From assembly GCA_020725675.1 (NCBI GenBank), contig DYEP01000139.1, positions 1 through 32,085 of the forward strand: DNA of 32,085 bases, read 5' to 3'. The stretch comes from Symbiobacterium sp. GTDB taxonomy: Bacteria; Bacillota; Sulfobacillia; DUSP01; DYEP01. The position numbers and the translations under genes were made by a program. The notes beneath the pieces are model-generated. The model had not been told where the DNA came from. It did no database searches and saw nothing but the letters and a program-made list of their open reading frames with translations. Shown in pieces: positions 20,430 through 30,150 of this stretch; position 1 is the stretch's first letter, and each line of letters opens with the position of its first letter.

Positions 20430-22193
20430 TTAGTCAGCCGGAAGCCGAAGCGCGTCTTGAGCTGCGCGAGGGTAACGTCCGCGGACTACGTAATGAGTGT
20501 GCAGCAATTCATGGGACTTGTGTCCGAGCGGCTTGCCCAAGAACTCCTTGTAAAGCGCCACCACTGCAGGGTTTTCGTGCGACTTGCGGATAGGTAGATT
20601 CCTGTCTGCCTCGTAGATGCCTTCGATGCGACGCATACGTTCTTCGGTAGTAGTGGGTATGGGTTGCCCGCCTCCTCCGATGCATCCACCCGGGCAGCAC
20701 ATGACTTCGACGAAGTGATAGTCGGCCTCGCCCCTTCTTACCCGCTCCATTATCGCCCGGGCATTGGACAAGCCGTGGGCAACAGCGACCTTGAGGGTAA
20801 GATCTCCCAGTTTGACCTGGGACTCCTTGACGCCTTCAAGACCCCGGACTTCTCTGAAATCAAGTGACGGAAGCGTCTCGTTGGTGACCACCTCATACGC
20901 GGTTCGAAGGGCTGCCTCCATCACTCCACCTGTAGCGCCGAAGATCACTGCCGCGCCTGTACTGATTCCAAGGGGCAGGTCATACTCCTCATCCTTCAGG
21001 CTCGCGAATTCAAGGCCCGCCTGCTTGATCATCCTTGCGAGTTCCCTCGTAGTGAGCACATAGTCCACGTCCCTGTAACCGCTTGCGTTCATCTCGCTTC
21101 TTGAGGCTTCGAATTTCTTGGCGGTACACGGCATAATGGAAACGACCACTATATCTGCCGGGTTGATGCCTGCTTTTTGTGCGTAGAACGTCTTGGCCAG
21201 CGCCCCAAACATCTGCTGGGGAGATTTGCACGTGGACAAGTTCGCCAGGTACTCAGGGTAGAAATGTTCCATGAACTTTATCCAGCCGGGGCTGCACGAC
21301 GTGAACATAGGAAGCACTCCGCCCTTTGTCAGCCGTTGGATCAGTTCATGGCCTTCTTCCATAATGGTAAGGTCAGCGGTGAAATCGGTATCGAACACGC
21401 GGTCAAACCCAAGAGCACGCAGAGCTGCCACGAGCTTACCTGTGGTCACTGCACCGACGGGCAGCCCGAACATCTCGCCAATGGATACTCTTACTGCGGG
21501 CGCGGTTTGCACTACCACGTGCTTCTTCGGATCAGCAAGCGCTGCCCAGACTTCGTCGATGTATTCCTTTTCGTGCAGTGCACCCACCGGGCACACCAGT
21601 GTGCACTGCCCGCAGAGTACGCATGCTGCGTCCATCAGGGATTCCCCGAAAGCAGGGCCTACAGTCGTGGATAGGCCGCGTTCGAGCATGCCCACCGCAG
21701 ACACGCCCTGGACCTTTTCACACACAGATACACACCGCCGGCACAGGATGCACTTGTCCTGGTCGCGTATAATTGACGGAGTTGAGACATCCGGTACGCG
21801 GTGTGTTCTCTCGCCCTGGAACCGTACGTCTCTTACCCCTAGCGATTCCGCCAGTTGCTGAAGCTCGCAATTTAGGTTGCGGATGCATGTGGGACACTCA
21901 TATGGGTGATCTGACAGGATGAGCTCCACAGTCAGGCGTCTTGACTTGCGTACCTGCGGGCTGTTGGTGCGCACTACCATGCCGTTGGAAACTGGAGTGA
22001 CGCACGCTGCCTGGAGCGTCCTTGCGCCTTTCACTTCCACTACGCATACCCTGCATGCGCCGATGGCGTTAATGTCCTTCAGGTAGCACAGGGTGGGAAT
22101 ATGGATGCCGGCGAGCTTTGCGGCTTCCAGTATTGTAGTACCTGCCTCAGCCTGTACTTCCTTGTCATCAATAATCAGCTTCACAAGGGCCAT
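20430..22193 (-). CDS. hndD: [FeFe] hydrogenase catalytic subunit (HndD/HydA)
   Basis: Catalytic subunit, 587 residues, for reversible H2 formation. Domains: plant-type [2Fe-2S] (Cys36, 47, 50, 64), the His-Cys cluster motif DHPYECPTCIRNLNC, two [4Fe-4S] clusters (CILCRRCVSVC and CVLCGQCTLVC), the H-cluster domain, and a C-terminal small-subunit-like tail. H-cluster loops: L1 TSCSPGW, L2 MPCTAKK, L3 MCCPGGCIGGGGQP. L1 differs from the textbook TSCCPxW by Ser at the second Cys position; see findings. The size and modular set match HndD/HydA of cytoplasmic NAD(P)-linked or bifurcating hydrogenases. The ORF-track start at 22238 lies within the preceding gene; ATG 22193 follows AAGGAGGG and is the real start. 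It is the last gene of the operon. H-cluster maturases HydEFG are not in the window. Confidence 0.95.
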   Translation of the reverse strand: MALVKLIIDDKEVQAEAGTTILEAAKLAGIHIPTLCYLKDINAIGACRVCVVEVKGARTLQAACVTPVSNGMVVRTNSPQVRKSRRLTVELILSDHPYECPTCIRNLNCELQQLAESLGVRDVRFQGERTHRVPDVSTPSIIRDQDKCILCRRCVSVCEKVQGVSAVGMLERGLSTTVGPAFGESLMDAACVLCGQCTLVCPVGALHEKEYIDEVWAALADPKKHVVVQTAPAVRVSIGEMFGLPVGAVTTGKLVAALRALGFDRVFDTDFTADLTIMEEGHELIQRLTKGGVLPMFTSCSPGWIKFMEHFYPEYLANLSTCKSPQQMFGALAKTFYAQKAGINPADIVVVSIMPCTAKKFEASRSEMNASGYRDVDYVLTTRELARMIKQAGLEFASLKDEEYDLPLGISTGAAVIFGATGGVMEAALRTAYEVVTNETLPSLDFREVRGLEGVKESQVKLGDLTLKVAVAHGLSNARAIMERVRRGEADYHFVEVMCCPGGCIGGGGQPIPTTTEERMRRIEGIYEADRNLPIRKSHENPAVVALYKEFLGKPLGHKSHELLHTHYVVRGRYPRAAQDALRLPAD

Positions 22194-22219
22194 GATCCAT
22201 CCCTCCTTTTTTCTAGACT

Positions 22220-25200
22220 TTACTCCCGAATGTCGCACCTCAGACAGCGGGCTGCTTCCCGCATCGCTGCGTCAGGAGTGTATGAAAGCTCTACCTCACA
22301 GAAAGAGCATAGTCGTTCTGAAACGGGGACCGTTTTTATCTTCTCTCTATGTGTAACGTCTTCCAGAAGTTCGTAGCTTGCAGTTCTGGTGACTTCAAGC
22401 TCGGGCATTAGCACCCCGTCTCCTCCGAGGAATTTGTCGATAGACGATGCGGCAGCCTTACCCGCGGCGATGGCTTCTATCACTGTGGCGGGCCCGGTGA
22501 CGCAGTCCCCGGCTGCAAACACCCACGGCACATTGGTTGCGTAACTGTCGGGGTTCACTGACAGCACGCCGCCCTTGCCCACTGCAAGACCCTCGTCCAC
22601 AAGGGGGTCAGATTCTGGCACCTGACCGATGGCGGGTATGACCACGTCCGCCCTTATCAGGAATTCCGACCGGTCAATGGGAACCGTCCGGCGACGCCCA
22701 CTGGCATCGAATTCGGCCGGCCGCATCATGACACATTGCAACGCTTCGACCTTGCCGTTACCCATGACTTGCACGGGGTTCACCATAGGTGTGATCTTAA
22801 TACCCTCGCGTTCGGCCTCTTCTATTTCGGCTGCTTCGGCAGGCATGTCTTCTTTTCTGCGCCTGTAAACGATGGTTACCTCTGCGGCTCCTAAGCGTTT
22901 TGCTGAGCGGGCAGCATCTATCGCCACGTTACCTCCGCCTACTACGACGACGGCCTTGCCTCTGACATCCATACCTTTGCCGAGGTTCACATCGCGCAGG
23001 AAGGACGCTCCCGGGACCACTCCCGGCAGGTCTTCTCCCGGGATGGAGAGACGCTGGTCTTTGTGGGCGCCGATAGCGATGAACACTGCGGCGTATCCCT
23101 GTTCCTTCAGGTCGGCCAGGCTGAAATGCTTGCCCAGAGCCCTTTCAGTCTGGATCTCCATGCCGAACTCGCGGAGTATTTCGATCTCCTTGTTTAGGAC
23201 CTGTTTGGGTAGCCGGTACTCGGGAATACCCACTGTAAGCATGCCTCCAACTACCGGCAGCGCTTCGAAAACAGTCACCGAGTAGCCCTTAAGCGACAGG
23301 TAGTAGCCGGCGGTTAGCCCTGCAGGCCCCGAGCCAATAACAGCCACCTTTTTTCCGTTTCGCGGAGCAGATGTCAAACGCGGCCTTGCGCCGTTGGAGT
23401 TTACCGCGTAGTCTGCAGCAAACCTCTTTAGTGCCTTGATAGCCAAAGGCTCATCGATTTGTTCCCGCCTGCACCTTGACTCACAGGGGTGGTGGCACAC
23501 CCTGCCGCAGATCACGGGCAGCGGGTTGTTTCTCATGATGGTCTCATAGGCATCTATGAACAGTCCCTGCCTTATCTGGTCGATATAGATGGGCACGTCC
23601 ACTTCAGCGGGACAGGTATTCTGACATGGTGAGTGAAACAGGGACGCGCATACGGATGCCGGGCACTTCTTCTTTCTGATGTGCGCCTCGTACTCATGCC
23701 TGAAGTACCTGATGGTGCTGAGTACTGGATTGGGCGCTGTCTGCCCGAGACCGCAAAGGGCTGAAGCCTTTATTGATTCTCCGAGCTCGACGAGCAGGTC
23801 AATATCGCCTTCCTTGCCTTCTCCGTGCGCGATGCGGTCAAGGATCTCGAGCATCCGCTTGGTCCCGATACGGCAGGGCGTGCACTTACCGCACGATTCA
23901 TCCTGGACGAACTCAAGGAAGAATCTGGCCAGGTCGACCATGCAGGTGTCTTCGTCCATGACGATGAGCCCGCCTGAGCCCATGATCGTGCCCAGCGCGC
24001 TCAGAGACTCATAGTCGATGGGTGTGTTCAGGTGCTGCACGGGGATGCATCCGCCTGACGGACCGCCCGTTTGTGCTGCCTTGAAGCGCTTACGCCCTGG
24101 TATGCCCCCGCCGATATCGAAAACAATATCACCGAGAGTGGTACCCATGGGTACCTCTACAAGCCCGTTGTTGTTGATCTTTCCTGCCAGAGCGAATACC
24201 TTGGTACCTTTTGAACCCTCTGTACCGATGCTTGCAAACCATTCCGGACCCTTAAGTATGATAGAGGGAACATTTGCGAACGTTTCCACATTGTTTATTA
24301 TAGTCGGACGGTCCCAGAGTCCCGAGTTGGCAGGGAATGGTGGACGCGGCCTTGGTTCGCCTCTTCTACCCATTATGGATGTGAGCAGTGCAGTCTCCTC
24401 GCCGCATACAAACGCTCCCGCTCCCAGGCGGATCTCAATATCGAAGTCAAACCCGGAGTTGAATATGTTCTTGCCAAGAAGACCCTTCTCTCTGGCTTGC
24501 CGTATGGCGATGACAAGCCTGCGCACTGCGATGGGGTACTCGGCCCGGATGTATATGAAGCCACGCGATGCACCTATGGCGTAGCCGGCAATGGCCATAC
24601 CCTCCAGGACAGAGTGGGGATCTCCCTCAAGGGTGCTTCTGTCCATGAACGCACCGGGATCACCTTCGTCCGCGTTACATACCACATATTTGGGTGTACC
24701 CTGTGCCTTTGCCGCGAACTCCCATTTTAGGCCGGTAGGGAACCCTCCGCCGCCCCTGCCGCGTAGCCCAGATTTCCTGACCGTTTCGATGACATCCTCT
24801 GGCTTCATCTCTGTGACCACTCGGCCGAGAGCCAGGTAACCGTCGCGGGCGATGTATTCTTCGATATTTTCAGGATCGATTACGCCACAGTTCTTCAGTA
24901 CGATGCGGTACTGCTTTTTGAAAAATTCGATGTCATTGAAATCGACTACCGCCACGTTATCTACCGGTTCATGGTACAGAAGGCGTGTGAGCGTACGACC
25001 TTTTATAAAGTGTTCCTCCACCAGCTCAGGTACGTCTTCCACTTGTACCTGGCAGTAGAAAACACCTTCGGGGTATACCATAATGTTAGGACCGAACCTG
25101 CAAAATCCAAAGCAACCAGTTTCCACTACGCGAATCTCTTTGTCAAGACCGCGTGAAGCGATCTCCTCGCGCAGCGCATGCCTGAGCGCCTCGCTGTTAG

Positions 25201-25255
25201 ATGCTTCACAACCGGTACCCGCACAAACAAGTACGTGAGAACGATAAAACTCCAT
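22220..25255 (-). CDS. hndC: HndC/HydB NuoF-like subunit fused to GltD/NfnB module
   Basis: Flavoprotein of 1011 residues, about twice the usual ~500-600 for HndC/HydB. N-terminal thioredoxin-like [2Fe-2S] domain (Cys11, 16, 48, 52); NuoF domain with the FMN/NADH loop GRGGGGFPTGLKWEF (~166-180) and [4Fe-4S] ligands Cys455, 458, 461 and 501. From ~530 the usual C-terminal ferredoxin domain is replaced by a GltD-type module: two [4Fe-4S] motifs (Cys531/536/544/548 and 583/587/591/595), FAD site AVIGSGPAGLTAGYYL, and NAD(P) site VVVGGGNVAIDAARSAKRLG with VYRRRKEDMPA, the Arg-rich pattern of NADPH-binding GltD proteins. The C-terminus has CSFC and CLRC. It thus offers both an FMN/NAD(H) and an FAD/NADP(H) site next to a hydrogenase. 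It lies between HndB and the catalytic subunit. The reading frame is continuous. Confidence 0.93.
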   Translation of the reverse strand: MEFYRSHVLVCAGTGCEASNSEALRHALREEIASRGLDKEIRVVETGCFGFCRFGPNIMVYPEGVFYCQVQVEDVPELVEEHFIKGRTLTRLLYHEPVDNVAVVDFNDIEFFKKQYRIVLKNCGVIDPENIEEYIARDGYLALGRVVTEMKPEDVIETVRKSGLRGRGGGGFPTGLKWEFAAKAQGTPKYVVCNADEGDPGAFMDRSTLEGDPHSVLEGMAIAGYAIGASRGFIYIRAEYPIAVRRLVIAIRQAREKGLLGKNIFNSGFDFDIEIRLGAGAFVCGEETALLTSIMGRRGEPRPRPPFPANSGLWDRPTIINNVETFANVPSIILKGPEWFASIGTEGSKGTKVFALAGKINNNGLVEVPMGTTLGDIVFDIGGGIPGRKRFKAAQTGGPSGGCIPVQHLNTPIDYESLSALGTIMGSGGLIVMDEDTCMVDLARFFLEFVQDESCGKCTPCRIGTKRMLEILDRIAHGEGKEGDIDLLVELGESIKASALCGLGQTAPNPVLSTIRYFRHEYEAHIRKKKCPASVCASLFHSPCQNTCPAEVDVPIYIDQIRQGLFIDAYETIMRNNPLPVICGRVCHHPCESRCRREQIDEPLAIKALKRFAADYAVNSNGARPRLTSAPRNGKKVAVIGSGPAGLTAGYYLSLKGYSVTVFEALPVVGGMLTVGIPEYRLPKQVLNKEIEILREFGMEIQTERALGKHFSLADLKEQGYAAVFIAIGAHKDQRLSIPGEDLPGVVPGASFLRDVNLGKGMDVRGKAVVVVGGGNVAIDAARSAKRLGAAEVTIVYRRRKEDMPAEAAEIEEAEREGIKITPMVNPVQVMGNGKVEALQCVMMRPAEFDASGRRRTVPIDRSEFLIRADVVIPAIGQVPESDPLVDEGLAVGKGGVLSVNPDSYATNVPWVFAAGDCVTGPATVIEAIAAGKAAASSIDKFLGGDGVLMPELEVTRTASYELLEDVTHREKIKTVPVSERLCSFCEVELSYTPDAAMREAARCLRCDIRE

Positions 25256-25288: not shown

Positions 25289-25672
25289 TCACGACGATTT
25301 CGTATCTACTGGCTTTACGTTGACTGCCCATTCCGTAATGGGCTGTCCGTTTACCACGTGCTGGGCGACGATCCGCCTCGCCTTGTCTGCCGTGACATTT
25401 CCATATGTCACAGGCACTTGGCCTGGAATAACCACGTCAATCAAAGGCTCGCGGGCACAAAGCCCAATGCACCCTGTCTGGGTAACTGATACCGTGCTCA
25501 GCTTGCGCTTTTGGAGCTCATCCAAGATTGCTGCTACTACTTCACGCGCGCCAGCGGCGATACCGCAGGTCCCCATACCCACTACAATACGTGGGTGTTC
25601 ACTCATCTCACGAAGTCTGATCGTCTCCAGAGCCCGTTCCTTAATGCGCGCCAGATCTTCAAGGGACTTCAA
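25289..25672 (-). CDS. hndB: HndB-like thioredoxin-fold [2Fe-2S] protein
   Basis: A 127-residue protein like HndB of NADP-reducing hydrogenases, proposed to carry a thioredoxin-like [2Fe-2S] cluster. Motifs: VVGMGTCGIAAGA (Cys36) and TQTGCIGLCAREP (Cys68, Cys72). Only three Cys are present; the position matching the first Cys of the HndC N-terminal domain is Gly, so cluster binding may need another ligand or may differ. A TTG start at 25672 is chosen because AGGGGGGTGAG is placed eight bases upstream. The gene overlaps the end of the preceding GHKL ATPase gene by 14 bases and is followed after 33 bases by HndC, so it is firmly in the operon. Confidence 0.88.
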   Translation of the reverse strand: MKSLEDLARIKERALETIRLREMSEHPRIVVGMGTCGIAAGAREVVAAILDELQKRKLSTVSVTQTGCIGLCAREPLIDVVIPGQVPVTYGNVTADKARRIVAQHVVNGQPITEWAVNVKPVDTKSS

Positions 25673-26228
25673 TGTTCAGCTCACCCCCCTGGTTGTTCTC
25701 CGAAATGCTTTTGTAGATCCAATCCTTGAGCCATTGAATGACCATAGGGTGGGTTATGGGTACCTCACCCAGTTCCGCCTTTATCTGTGCGGTGTCTAGC
25801 TCGAACTCCCGCGTACCCCACTTGTAACGGAGCCTAAGATTGACATTGGGAGTCGAGGCTACTATCACTGCCACAGTGCCTGCCAGGTCACCGAGCGGTG
25901 GGCGATCGATGTGGCGAAGCCCGAACCATGCGTGGACGGTGGTGCCTTTGCCCGGTTCGGAATGCACAGCCACACCGCCACCGCTTGCGCGGGCCGAATC
26001 CTGCAGCAGCGGCAACCCAAGCCCCACACGCCTGGTTTTCCGCGTTGTGTAGTAGGGACAGAGCACGCGATGTTGCGCCTCAGTTGGGATACCCTTACCG
26101 TTATCAGTCACGATGATATCGATGCGGTCACGCTCAGGGTGGCAAGTGATGTCTACACCCACCCAGGTGGCGCCTGCTTCGACCGAGTTACGGAACAAGT
26201 CCAGAACGTGCAAAGCCAGCTCTTCCAC
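25659..26228 (-). CDS. Stand-alone GHKL ATPase domain protein
   Basis: A 189-residue protein with a histidine-kinase-type ATPase domain but no phosphoacceptor domain or sensor. N-box: LDLFRNSVEAGATWVGVDI; G1: VTDNGKGIP; then CPYYTTRKTRRVGLGLPLLQDSA and G2 GKGTTVHAWF. The C-terminal ~75 residues (AVIVASTPNVNLRLRYKWGTREFELDT) are a separate domain I cannot name. Similar genes are known within clostridial [FeFe] hydrogenase operons, where their role is unclear; a regulatory kinase is a fair guess. The start is GTG 26228, two bases after the HndA stop. Confidence 0.85.
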   Translation of the reverse strand: MEELALHVLDLFRNSVEAGATWVGVDITCHPERDRIDIIVTDNGKGIPTEAQHRVLCPYYTTRKTRRVGLGLPLLQDSARASGGGVAVHSEPGKGTTVHAWFGLRHIDRPPLGDLAGTVAVIVASTPNVNLRLRYKWGTREFELDTAQIKAELGEVPITHPMVIQWLKDWIYKSISENNQGGELNIEVP

Positions 26229-26230
26229 GG

Positions 26231-26719
26231 CTACTTCTTCTTCCTATATCTGTCCAGGATACCGCTTACCCGGTCTGGTTTCATTCTGGCGTGGGTATCC
26301 TTGTTCACGGTGATTACTGGAGCCAGCCCGCAGGCACCCAGGCACCTGACCACCTCGAGCGAGAACTCGCCGTCGTCAGTGCTGTCACCCGCTTTTATGC
26401 CCAGTTCCTTCTCGAACCGCTCAAGCACCTTTGGGGCCCCCCTTACATAGCAGGCGGTGCCGTTGCAGCACGAAATTTGATGCCTACCCTTGGGTTTCAG
26501 TGAGAAGAAGGCGTAGAACGTCACAACTCCGTAAACATCTGCGAGTGGGACGCCAAGACCCTCTGAAATCCTGACCATGATGTCCTTTGGGACATATCCC
26601 AGTGATTCTTGGGCAGTATGAAGCACCTGGATCAAGCCGTCTGGCTGGTTTTTGTGAGACTCGATCGCTTTATCCACTTCCTGATATGCCTTTTCACAGG
26701 CGCATGCCGGTTCAGCCAT
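26231..26719 (-). CDS. hndA: HndA NuoE-like [2Fe-2S] subunit
   Basis: A 162-residue homologue of NuoE/HydC. An N-terminal helical bundle (CEKAYQEVDKAIESHKNQPDGLIQVLHTAQESLGYVP) is followed by a thioredoxin-like domain with [2Fe-2S] ligands in SCCNGTACYVRGAP and RCLGACGLAP. It should transfer electrons between the NuoF-like HndC and the rest of the complex. The ORF track extends to 26938 through the PHP gene; ATG 26719 is the real start, behind GGGGGGAG, and fits the family length. Fifty bases separate it from the PHP gene. The next gene starts two bases after its stop. Confidence 0.93.
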   Translation of the reverse strand: MAEPACACEKAYQEVDKAIESHKNQPDGLIQVLHTAQESLGYVPKDIMVRISEGLGVPLADVYGVVTFYAFFSLKPKGRHQISCCNGTACYVRGAPKVLERFEKELGIKAGDSTDDGEFSLEVVRCLGACGLAPVITVNKDTHARMKPDRVSGILDRYRKKK

Positions 26720-26769
26720 ACTTGATTTCTCCCCCCATCCTTTCATTTGCACTCCCGTTGGCGCTCGGG

Positions 26770-27504
26770 CTACCTCCAGGCGACTGCCCGGCGGCCACAG
26801 GTTCCTTTGAGGGCCATCCGCATTTCGGAAACTGACAGGTCTCTGACGTAGAAGGCCGTTTTCCCCTGCCGAATATCGCTCGGTGTGTGCGCATCCGAGT
26901 TTAAAAGCAGTGAGTGTCCGCCATAAGCCTCCGGACACAGTGGGTTACCACACCGGTCGGACACTTCAAGCCCATCAACGGCAAGATCCGGAGGGAAAAG
27001 CCCAAGGACGTTCAGGAGACCTCCTCTTTCCCTATCGATGTGTGCCGGAATGCACAATCCCCCTGAATGCCGGGTCATGAACGCCAGCTGATTTATGCTC
27101 AGGTTGCAGGCACACGAAAGAAGTAAAGTCTCTTCGCCTGTCTGGATTCCTTTGTCATTGAACACTATCTGTCTTCCAAAGATCGAAACGTCATTGTTCC
27201 TACACGGCAGGTTAGCATAGATCACCTCCTGAAAAGATTCGGCTTTGATCGGGTCGTCGAATATACAAAGCACGTGGACTTCCTCTCTCGATGTCACCTC
27301 TAGCCCTGATAGCACTCGAAGAGTTGTACCTTTGGCCGTGCTGATCAGAGCCCTGCAATTCTTTGCGCTGTTATGGTCCGTAATTGCTATGCCGTCAAGG
27401 CTCGCCTCCAGTGCCCGACCCACTATGTTCCCAGGAGTCATGGCATCGTCCGCGCACGGCGAGAGCGCAGTGTGAATATGCAGGTCCACGAACAACCAGC
27501 GCAT
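26770..27504 (-). CDS. PHP-domain metal-dependent phosphoesterase
   Basis: A 244-residue PHP-fold hydrolase. Metal-binding motifs are intact: VDLHIHTALSPCADD (HxH), IAITDHNSAKN, GLEVTSREEVHVLCIF, IPAHIDRERGG and LLLNSDAHTPSDI. The family hydrolyses phosphate mono- or diesters (nucleotides, histidinol phosphate and others); the substrate here is unknown. The start is ATG 27504, overlapping the DRTGG stop as TGATG. Such a gene is known to accompany clostridial hydrogenase operons, yet no redox role has been shown to my knowledge. It might act on a nucleotide signal connected with the DRTGG protein; that is inference. Confidence 0.9.
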   Translation of the reverse strand: MRWLFVDLHIHTALSPCADDAMTPGNIVGRALEASLDGIAITDHNSAKNCRALISTAKGTTLRVLSGLEVTSREEVHVLCIFDDPIKAESFQEVIYANLPCRNNDVSIFGRQIVFNDKGIQTGEETLLLSCACNLSINQLAFMTRHSGGLCIPAHIDRERGGLLNVLGLFPPDLAVDGLEVSDRCGNPLCPEAYGGHSLLLNSDAHTPSDIRQGKTAFYVRDLSVSEMRMALKGTCGRRAVAWR

Positions 27505-27836
27505 CACGTATCCAATATCCGGTGCAGTCTTCCTGCTACCTCAAAGGATGGATCCTGCGTACACAATATGGGGATGCCGTCCCGTTTCGCTCTTTCCAGA
27601 GTATCTTCGTGAGGTGCTCTGCCACCGGTAATGATAATAGCGGATAGATTTGCCAGTACTGCCACGGCCACAATGTTCTGATGAGTCTGGATGGTGATCC
27701 AGATGTCTTTTTCCTTGGCACGAGCCATCACGTCAGACAGCAGGTCACCACAGTAGCCACCGCGGACGGTCTTTTCAAGTCCATTGCCTGCCCTGATCTC
27801 CAATCCCAGTGCACGCGCGATCTCCTCTACGGTCAT
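27504..27836 (-). CDS. DRTGG domain protein
   Basis: A 110-residue protein consisting almost only of a DRTGG-type domain: VEEIARALGLEIRAGNG, then VRGGYCGDLLSDVMARAKEKDIWITIQTHQNIVAVAVLANLSAIIITGGRAP. The domain also occurs in some phosphotransacetylases and CBS-domain proteins, where it is regarded as regulatory; its ligand is not established. ATG 27836 overlaps the end of the sensory-hydrogenase-like gene (ATGA) and the stop overlaps the PHP start (TGATG), so three genes are translationally coupled. Confidence 0.87.
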   Translation of the reverse strand: MTVEEIARALGLEIRAGNGLEKTVRGGYCGDLLSDVMARAKEKDIWITIQTHQNIVAVAVLANLSAIIITGGRAPHEDTLERAKRDGIPILCTQDPSFEVAGRLHRILDT

Positions 27837-29155
27837 TCAGCCTCATCCTTTCTGCTTGAGGGAATCTCCCGAGGAGCCATGGCAGGAGGGACTTTTCTCG
27901 CAAGGGCGACCATCTCCTCGGCCAACTGGTGAACCCGTTCACGAAGCTTGAAGATACAGTCTGTTTCATATGCACGGTTGTTTACGATATCTTCAGCGAG
28001 GGCGCGGCAGCTCGGAGCGCCACACGAGCCGCAGTCAAGTCCTGGAAGGCGCGCTTCTGTGGCTTCGAGCTGGTTCATCTTGGCTATTGCTCGTGACAAA
28101 TCCGTATCCAGGGATAGCGCAAACCTCGGCGACACCCGTTTTGTGAAACGAAAGACGTCCAAGCTGCCAGATATCGAATAAGGGACGGGGTCCGATGTCT
28201 CCACAAGTTTCCTCACCCGAATTCTTGACACAAAGGGGTTTTCCACGGTAAGACAACCGCCCACGCATCCGCCGACGCAGGCTTGAGCTTCGATGAAGTC
28301 CAGGTCACCGAGGCGTCCTCTTTCTACCTCATTCAGTACGGTAATTACGTTGTGAATACCGTCCACCGCCAGGCTGTTTACACCCAGCGACTGCATCTCT
28401 CCACCCGCCCTGCCCCAACCTACTCCCGACCTCGAACCCCTTGGATAATCGGTCAAGGGTTCGACTTTGTCGATCAAGGATCGTATTACGGAAAAGACCT
28501 CATTCATCGAGATGACCGCGTCTACTGAGGAATCGGTGACTCCTACGGGCTGCTTGGATGCGGTTACCTTTGCAGGGCAGGGAGTAATAAAAAACGCGCC
28601 CACTTGACCTGTGACGCCCCGTTCGGACGCCCTCTGCTTGGCAATCCTGGCTGCGACCTCCATCGGAGCAAGCACCGGGATGATGTTCTCCACTAGCGCT
28701 GCGTATTTGACCTGCACCAGCCTGAGCACAGCAGGGCAGGCGGAAGAAATGAGCGGCCGCGGCTGCAGGTGGTTGTCAAGGTAGTCCAGGATAGTCGCTG
28801 TAACTACGTCCGCTGCTGCCGATACCTCAAACACGTCGTCAAACCCGGCCAGCACCAGTGCACCCGCAACCCGCGCGGGATCAGTACCGTCTTCAAACTG
28901 CCCCATCAGAGAGGGCGCGGGCAATGCCACCGTATAGTCAAAGGCTGACAGAAGGTCCATTGGGTCGGTTACCGCGAGTTTGGCCTTGTTCGGGCATCTT
29001 CTGATGCATTCTCCGCAGTCAATGCACCGCTCTTCCATGATCCTGGCCTTTCCCGCGCTCACCCTTATGGCCTCTGTGGGACAGCGCTTGATACAGTTGG
29101 TGCAGCCCTTGCACTTCTCCTGATCCAGCCTGACCGAGTGAAAGTACCTGGTCAC
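27833..29155 (-). CDS. Sensory-type [FeFe]-hydrogenase-like protein
   Basis: About 440 residues. Two [4Fe-4S] ferredoxin clusters at the N-terminus (KCKGCTNCIKRCP and CIDCGECIRRCP), an [FeFe]-hydrogenase large-subunit domain, and a C-terminal [4Fe-4S] motif DCGSCGAPSC...DC like that of RnfB. H-cluster-type loops are L1 SSACPAV, L2 ITPCPAK and L3 QACVGGCVGGC. In L1 the proton-transfer Cys of catalytic enzymes is Ala and the Trp is lost, as in putative sensory hydrogenases, while potential cluster ligands remain. It probably senses H2 or redox state rather than turning over H2. Starts: GTG 29167 (ORF track) or GTG 29155; AAAGGTGG favours 29155. The flanking GHKL ATPase and DRTGG genes support a signalling role. 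Confidence 0.87.
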   Translation of the reverse strand: MTRYFHSVRLDQEKCKGCTNCIKRCPTEAIRVSAGKARIMEERCIDCGECIRRCPNKAKLAVTDPMDLLSAFDYTVALPAPSLMGQFEDGTDPARVAGALVLAGFDDVFEVSAAADVVTATILDYLDNHLQPRPLISSACPAVLRLVQVKYAALVENIIPVLAPMEVAARIAKQRASERGVTGQVGAFFITPCPAKVTASKQPVGVTDSSVDAVISMNEVFSVIRSLIDKVEPLTDYPRGSRSGVGWGRAGGEMQSLGVNSLAVDGIHNVITVLNEVERGRLGDLDFIEAQACVGGCVGGCLTVENPFVSRIRVRKLVETSDPVPYSISGSLDVFRFTKRVSPRFALSLDTDLSRAIAKMNQLEATEARLPGLDCGSCGAPSCRALAEDIVNNRAYETDCIFKLRERVHQLAEEMVALARKVPPAMAPREIPSSRKDEAE

Positions 29156-29173
29156 CGACACGACCACCTTTCG

Positions 29174-29626
29174 CTATCGCTCTACCAGGATCACCGAGTG
29201 CACTCTGGTACCCACACCCACAACCGACTCTATCGCAAAAGTATCTGAATGCGCCTTCATATTTGGCAGGCCCATCCCAGCCCCAAAACCCATCTCTCGC
29301 ACTGAGGGCGGTGCGGTAGAAAAACCCTCCTCCATTGCCCGGTCAATGTCCGGTATACCGGGACCTTCATCCACCGCTTCGATCGTAACCTGCTTCGGCG
29401 TGATGGTTGCCTGCAACGTGCCCCTGATCGCGTGTATGATGATATTCATTTCAGCCTCATAGGTGACGATAGCGACCCGCCTGGTGACGGAGGCAGGCAG
29501 CCCGAGCTGCACACACACCTCTCTGATGTGGGCAGAGGCCTCACCTCCAGATGCAAAATCCATTCCCCGTATGTGAAACTTTACGGACAGACTCGTATCC
29601 TCCGGGCTCGCCGGGCGGTCGGTCAC
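29174..29626 (-). CDS. RsbT/RsbW-like GHKL serine kinase or anti-sigma factor
   Basis: A 150-residue single-domain ATPase of the anti-sigma/serine kinase class. N-box VTYEAEMNIIIHAIRG, G1 DEGPGIPD, G2-like MGFGAGMGLPNMKAHSD and the terminal VGVGTRVHSVIL. RsbT/RsbW proteins phosphorylate small STAS antagonists or bind sigma factors; no STAS or sigma gene is in the window. The start is GTG 29626 behind AAGGTAGG; 7 bases separate it from the sensory-hydrogenase-like ORF. Similar proteins are known upstream of such hydrogenase-like genes in Clostridia, suggesting a joint signalling pair. Confidence 0.87.
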   Translation of the reverse strand: MTDRPASPEDTSLSVKFHIRGMDFASGGEASAHIREVCVQLGLPASVTRRVAIVTYEAEMNIIIHAIRGTLQATITPKQVTIEAVDEGPGIPDIDRAMEEGFSTAPPSVREMGFGAGMGLPNMKAHSDTFAIESVVGVGTRVHSVILVER

Positions 29627-29634
29627 ACTTGCAC

Positions 29635-30150
29635 CTACCTTGTCTGGCGTCTCCAGGCTGATGACTGTATGATGAGCGCTGCTAATAAGGCTCCTATCAG
29701 GGCCGTGAACAGCTGGTTAACCGTCAGCGTGGTCACAAGCACTGGAGGTACCTTAATGTTTGGAGCCAAAATCAGTTTGACGCCTGCTGTCATCACCGCA
29801 TACTTTACCACCGCTGCACTGCAAGCAGCGATCCAGCACGCGGGACGGGTATGGAACGACTTTGAAAGCACTGCCCAGAGAAAGTAGAAGGTGAGCACCA
29901 GGGCTGCGTTACCAGCCATGATCACAGGCAGTGCTGGCGCAAACTTCATTATTCCGGTGGTCAGAGCCACCCACGGGGTAATCAACCCGACAATGACCCC
30001 GAACACAGGGCCGACAAGAGCCGATGTGACAAATAGTATGGCGTTGATCACAGGCCCTGTGATCATCTGGCCGAGTCCGGCGCTCTGTACCGCAAGCGCA
30101 AGCGCGAGAAGTACTGCTGTCTGCACCATAGACTTAAGCTCGATCTTCAT
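29635..30150 (-). CDS. ECF transporter S-component-like membrane protein
   Basis: A 171-residue, very hydrophobic protein with about five or six transmembrane helices, starting MKIELKSMVQTAVLLALALAVQ, a pattern typical of ECF S-components (substrate-binding subunits of vitamin/metal importers). The internal GPVINAILFVTSALVGPVFGVIVG also fits that fold. No ECF ATPase or T-component gene is nearby, so it would share modules encoded elsewhere, or serve another role. It is the first gene of the hydrogenase operon, with AGGGGG seven bases before ATG. The substrate is unknown. Confidence 0.78.
   Translation of the reverse strand: MKIELKSMVQTAVLLALALAVQSAGLGQMITGPVINAILFVTSALVGPVFGVIVGLITPWVALTTGIMKFAPALPVIMAGNAALVLTFYFLWAVLSKSFHTRPACWIAACSAAVVKYAVMTAGVKLILAPNIKVPPVLVTTLTVNQLFTALIGALLAALIIQSSAWRRQTR

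Follow-up and report, generated by a model that had tools for sequence, protein, structure and literature searches.

The locus raises the question of how a sensory [FeFe]-hydrogenase passes on its signal. Group D (M2e) is a class of putative sensors that by definition carries no PAS domain (PMC8163306; PMC3561251) and for which there was no known output domain (PMC8163306), and according to a 2024 review it is unknown how sensory [FeFe]-hydrogenases transduce their signal (PMC11376134). The window, that is, the whole stretch of 32,085 nucleotides that was analyzed, encodes a hydrogenase-like protein (HydS) immediately after an RsbW/SpoIIAB-type GHKL ATPase. HydS is a member of the known sensor class; what is new is an identifiable output module. 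It is likely that the group D HydS acts as an H2/redox sensor whose output is the adjacent GHKL kinase-type ATPase, within a complex that contains DRTGG proteins, and the gene fusions and linkage reported below offer a concrete answer to how this sensor class passes its signal on.

Gene arrangement and class of HydS

The minus-strand run between 30150 and 20430 comprises the following genes.

29635..30150 (-): ECF-transporter S-component-like membrane protein, the first gene of the run (PF12822, 28 bits, just under the cut-off)
29174..29626 (-): RsbW/SpoIIAB-type GHKL ATPase of 150 aa, putative Ser/Thr kinase (Pfam HATPase_c, 2.8e-08; HATPase_c_2, 9.3e-08)
27833..29167 (-), likely start 29155: HydS, group D (M2e) [FeFe]-hydrogenase-like putative sensor (Pfam, alignment, start region, tree)
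27504..27836 (-): DRTGG protein of the DRTGG2 type, with a 4-nt overlap with the HydS stop (Pfam PF07085, 7.5e-11)
26770..27507 (-): PHP-domain phosphoesterase-like protein (Pfam PF02811, 1.5e-08)
26231..26938 (-): NuoE/HydC-like [2Fe-2S] subunit (Pfam PF01257, 8e-51)
25659..26228 (-): second free-standing GHKL (histidine-kinase-type) ATPase, without a phospho-acceptor domain (Pfam HATPase_c, 1.1e-16)
25289..25672 (-): [2Fe-2S] thioredoxin-like ferredoxin (NCBIfam NF041612, 9e-14)
22220..25255 (-): HydB (NuoF-like) plus a GltD/NfnB-type pyridine-nucleotide oxidoreductase half (Pfam Complex1_51K, NADH_4Fe-4S, Fer4_20, Pyr_redox_2)
20430..22238 (-): HydA, catalytic group A6 [FeFe]-hydrogenase, NADH-dependent according to NCBIfam (NF040763, 936 bits against a cut-off of 765)

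Most neighbouring genes of this run overlap or are separated by gaps of a few bases, which suggests that they form one operon. The ATPase and HydS genes lie on the minus strand at the positions that a sequence-only reading of the window had given for them; they share the same frame and are separated by a TAG codon and a few further codons. The annotation probably places the HydS start (29167) 12 nt too far upstream, the GTG at 29155 being the true start, because AAAGGTGG precedes this GTG and the relatives also start just before the motif YFHSV. The first possible start of the NuoE/HydC-like gene overlaps the PHP gene, and its real start is probably further downstream. Promoter and terminator signals found upstream of the run were no better than those in shuffled sequence, and a Rex operator was rejected, as a scan of the window returned a single site with three mismatches (at 25194) vs. 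0.88 expected by chance.

The anatomy of HydS agrees with the sequence-only reading, which had described an SSACPAV loop without the proton-relay Cys and the Trp, retained potential H-cluster ligands, an RnfB-like C-terminal cluster motif, a location right after a GHKL serine-kinase-like gene and the absence of an attached PAS or phosphatase domain. The Pfam search identified a Fer4 pair at residues 12–62, corresponding to two N-terminal [4Fe-4S] motifs whose cysteines are invariant in the alignment, the Fe_hyd_lg_C domain at residues 79–304 (5.6e-35) and the FeS domain PF04060 at residues 374–406 (9.1e-12), and it detected no PAS and no phosphatase domain. The active-site loop reads I-S-S-A143-C144-P-A-V147 and thus has neither the proton-relay Cys nor the Trp. 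Identity of the window protein to the relatives identified in this analysis is about 50–60%. In its alignment with 11 relatives (12 rows), the H-cluster cysteines C144, C197, C297 and C301 are invariant, the proton-relay position (C299 of CpI; Ala143 in the window protein) is Ala in all members, and the position of CpI Met353 (T195 of the window protein, in ITPC) is Thr or Ser in every row. The C-terminal cluster (C379-x2-C382-x4-C387-x16-C404) has exactly the spacing Cx2Cx4Cx16C.

By these sequence features HydS fits the published description of group D (M2e), whose characteristics were defined by Land et al. (PMC8163306). Since its features are those of that class, the anatomy given by the sequence-only reading was correct and the class itself already known. 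The group D proteins TamHydS of Thermoanaerobacter mathranii, Cthe_0335 and TTE0887 likewise possess two N-terminal [4Fe-4S] motifs, a residue other than Cys at the proton-relay position, Ser/Thr where CpI has Met353 and a C-terminal Cx2Cx4Cx16C motif, lack a PAS domain and are encoded next to a bifurcating hydrogenase of group A and a kinase-like ATPase (PMC8163306; PMC3561251). Carere et al. assigned Cthe_0335 and TTE0887 to D (M2e), beside bifurcating hydrogenases and often with a histidine/serine kinase between them; they cite Calusinska (2010) for this nearby “histidine/serine kinase”, and the proximity of a kinase had been noted by 2012 (PMC3561251). The operon context is that of group D as well, with no PAS domain in HydS and a multimeric group A hydrogenase (HydA, A6) downstream. 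The present family shows fused ATPases and links to DRTGG proteins, for which no counterpart was found in published work on group D: a search for RsbW or DRTGG together with [FeFe]-hydrogenase, which covered the open-access literature, retrieved no relevant paper.

HydS shares a sensory-type H-domain and a C-terminal [4Fe-4S] cluster with the group C (M2f) proteins TmHydS and HfsB/RaHydS (PMC10055695; PMC8924675), and Ala at the proton-relay position is common to TmHydS and the window protein. In contrast, a PAS domain and sometimes an adjacent PP2C phosphatase are features of group C, and the window HydS has neither; no C-terminal PAS domain, the mark of group C (M2f), was found in it by Pfam. 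A phylogenetic tree sets the HydS family apart from the group C and group A proteins of the genome to which the window belongs. A classical group C HydS-PAS gene accompanied by a PP2C gene is located on contig C128, and both sensor types therefore coexist in this genome. H2-activating proteins that report to a GHKL kinase are also known from the regulatory [NiFe]-hydrogenase system HoxBC-HoxJ (referred to in PMC3561251 and PMC8163306), which differs in its metal cofactor and in its PAS-containing histidine kinase, whereas the ATPase encoded here is a small RsbW-type protein.

Conservation and fusion of the DRTGG-ATPase-HydS cassette

Related loci were collected by a genome scan (80 loci) and a class search (a further 30); the locus set comprises 111 loci, in which about 86 HydS sequences are distinct, and the two collections have some genomes in common. 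The gene order DRTGG1-RsbW-HydS-DRTGG2-PHP-HydABC is shared by loci from Bacillota, from Syntrophorhabdia/Syntrophia and from one Sumerlaeota bin, and the presence of the conserved cassette in dozens of genomes is a match far above chance. Upstream DNA is available for 107 loci, and in 106 of these the RsbW gene immediately precedes HydS, the sole exception being L062, where HydS and DRTGG1 are side by side and RsbW is missing at the site. DRTGG proteins, which the sequence-only reading had not mentioned, are constant neighbours of the RsbW-HydS pair, the window itself having DRTGG2 only. Conservation of an operon could by itself stem from co-regulation.

In the Fermentithermobacillaceae, RsbW and HydS are encoded in a single open frame, represented by 12 distinct sequences of one origin (clade support 100). 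One of these fusions comes from a one-contig complete chromosome of Fermentithermobacillus (L034/L069). The unfused HydS of the window is sister to the fused clade with a support of 94 in one quick tree, in which this join is flagged as a possible long-branch artefact. In seven of the 12 fused sequences the 13 codons ahead of HydS include no ATG, GTG or TTG, and in two there is none between the G2 box of the ATPase and HydS; such frames must therefore yield single polypeptides, unless a rarer start codon is used. DRTGG1 and RsbW are fused in two independent cases (Tepidanaerobacterales relatives; L118), as are HydS and DRTGG2 (L048; the paralogous cassette on contig C209 of the same genome), which together with the RsbW-HydS fusion, an event that occurred only once, brings the number of independent fusions along the order DRTGG-ATPase-HydS-DRTGG to about five. 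Because every junction of DRTGG1-RsbW-HydS-DRTGG2 is fused somewhere, gene-fusion reasoning strongly indicates a physical complex. The pairing of a sensor with a kinase and the idea of the ATPase as output, both proposed in the sequence-only reading, are strongly supported by the adjacency and by the RsbW-HydS fusions; HydS itself does not represent a novel type among the sensory hydrogenases.

An AlphaFold2 model of the RsbW-HydS fusion of L036 reached a pLDDT of 92.5 and a pTM of 0.85, and its HydS part resembles solved [FeFe]-hydrogenases. The pTM is somewhat above that expected if the ATPase quarter were free-floating, which in this predicted structure gives no more than a hint of a fixed interface. 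The model of the DRTGG1-RsbW fusion of L097 consists of two good domains joined by a disordered linker (pTM 0.64), with no docking site predicted for DRTGG.

In L093, L103, L117 and L121 the DNA downstream of the cassette is free of hydrogenase genes, and the window's own genome carries a second, paralogous cassette on C209; a cassette without an adjoining hydrogenase operon is what is expected of a signalling unit. A PPC/DUF296-type protein, which may be a target or a helper, is encoded after deltaproteobacterial cassettes (L093, 11576–12001, confirmed by Pfam; L119, 11507–11932).

The ATPase and its candidate partners

The ATPase shows a GHKL fold signature with N, G1 and G2 boxes, and its only sequence matches in the PDB are SpoIIAB proteins; in the DRTGG-RsbW model of a relative, the ATPase domain matches the SpoIIAB fold with a TMt of about 0.82. 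In the alignment of 82 distinct family members, every one of the 81 rows spanning the relevant positions has the catalytic Glu45 and the Mg-binding Asn49, and the glycines of the G1 and G2 boxes are invariant; because these residues are kept, the ATPase looks active as far as its sequence indicates. The fold, the catalytic Glu/Asn and the G1 and G2 boxes are shared with the anti-sigma kinases SpoIIAB/RsbW (PDB 1l0o, 1til, 6m36). Unlike these, the window ATPase adjoins HydS and DRTGG, and no STAS antagonist or cognate sigma factor is encoded beside it in the operon. Its score against the SpoIIAB equivalog model TIGR01925 is 50.2 bits, below the cut-off of 135.

The immediate partner of the ATPase is most likely a DRTGG protein, which is the leading guess among candidates. 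D29 and S32 of a D-L-x-S motif are conserved at 97% in DRTGG1 and at 100% in DRTGG2. Alignment A6 consists of fused DRTGG1-RsbW and RsbW rows only. An ECF sigma gene was observed just upstream of DRTGG1-RsbW-HydS on C209 of the same genome (L014, 3721–4416, minus strand) and in G003:C32 (L143, 5099–5941, plus strand); the two sigma factors are about 50% identical and come from genomes of the same order. ECF sigma is a possible lineage-specific output in these two cases. As a general output it was rejected, the linkage to the cassette being confined to C209 and G003 and the other clear match (L120) lying about 9 kb from HydS.

Proposed signal output and alternative explanations

The favoured reading is as follows. 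HydS would be retained as an H2/redox sensor and the adjacent RsbW/SpoIIAB-type ATPase would serve as its output module, the two forming a permanent complex that would also hold the DRTGG proteins. Within this complex HydS would act on the ATPase by altering its nucleotide or partner state, and the ATPase would signal through binding or phosphorylation of a partner and thereby adjust the bifurcating hydrogenase encoded downstream. H2 or redox state would thus control the ATPase and, through it, hydrogenase regulation; for this scheme we infer H-cluster occupancy, H2 sensing, kinase activity, the substrate or target of the ATPase and the direction of control, as well as the existence of the complex in the organism of the window. 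A more specific and tentative version, possible but carrying much less of our confidence, is a partner switch that is free of STAS proteins: the H2/redox state of HydS would gate the RsbW-type kinase, the DRTGG protein would be phosphorylated on the near-invariant Ser of D-L-x-S, PHP would be the counteracting phosphatase where present, and sensor and kinase would belong to one complex or one polypeptide. The PHP gene is found in 76 of the 111 loci, after DRTGG2 in most relatives, and is missing from some clades.

It is rather improbable that HydS is a [4Fe-4S] scaffold that reads the redox state of ferredoxin and not H2, with a dispensable [2Fe] subsite and the ATPase still as output. The lost proton-relay Cys, the conserved extra C-terminal cluster and the low activities of the sensory class (PMC8163306; PMC10055695) would suit such a protein, but none of the four H-cluster cysteines varies among the aligned relatives, and TamHydS, a group D enzyme, binds the H-cluster, accepts a synthetic [2Fe] cofactor and shows real, if slow, H2 turnover (PMC8163306). 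The presence of the maturase HydF in the genome also argues against it and makes H-cluster maturation plausible. Least probable of the readings considered here is that HydS serves HydABC as a subunit for catalysis or electron transfer, or as an assembly factor, with the ATPase and DRTGG proteins as chaperone-like, non-signalling components: a tight operon of conserved order with HydA, HydB and HydC and the H2 turnover catalyzed by group D enzymes (PMC8163306) are consistent with it, whereas the loss of the active-site proton relay, the kinase-type catalytic residues kept in the ATPase and the cassettes that lack an adjoining hydrogenase or occur as a paralogue on C209 are not.

Canonical partner switching, in which the ATPase would be an anti-sigma factor freed by a STAS antagonist and a PP2C phosphatase encoded elsewhere, with HydS as the upstream input, is very unlikely. 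The SpoIIAB/RsbW-like fold and motifs of the ATPase, the SpoIIE-type phosphatases present in 38 of 38 relatives and the ECF sigma genes upstream of the cassette in C209 and G003 would accord with it. The sequence-only reading had raised the possibility of a STAS antagonist elsewhere in the genome, and the search for one gave a single STAS gene, on contig C134, which adjoins the genome's own SpoIIAB. Most of the 38 cassette-bearing relatives possess exactly one STAS gene. Five lack STAS genes altogether, and the three genomes of genus g14 (G019–G021, 85–92% complete), all of which carry the RsbW-HydS fusion, are among these five. The lone STAS gene beside SpoIIAB and the fusion-bearing but STAS-free g14 genomes render RsbV/RsbW switching unlikely; moreover, the ATPase scores far under the SpoIIAB equivalog cut-off, no sigma gene is found near the window's cassette, and no ECF sigma gene like those of C209 and G003 is found near the cassette at the other loci. 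If the favoured reading, with the ATPase as output of HydS, is true, it would represent an RsbW-family kinase that operates without a STAS partner. Because the natural RsbW-HydS fusions would combine an H-cluster and a kinase-type ATPase in the protein of a single gene, the question of sensor output is directly testable.

Several further features of these loci were observed. The full HydF gene (C132:10441–11625) is accompanied by a second HydF C-terminal part (C206:6526–7263), which may be a duplicate or a contamination of the fragmented assembly. The ECF S-component-like gene, whose product has no solved relative by sequence, is also located upstream of the cassette in relatives from several families, namely L024–L026, L029, L032–L034, L036, L039, L040, L052, L053, L064, L065 and L069. 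The second GHKL ATPase (25659–26228), between the HydC and ferredoxin genes, is kept in 80 of the 111 loci. The extra GltD/NfnB-like half of HydB (Fer4_20 plus Pyr_redox_2) suggests a second pyridine-nucleotide site, and a similar HydB gene span is found in many relatives.
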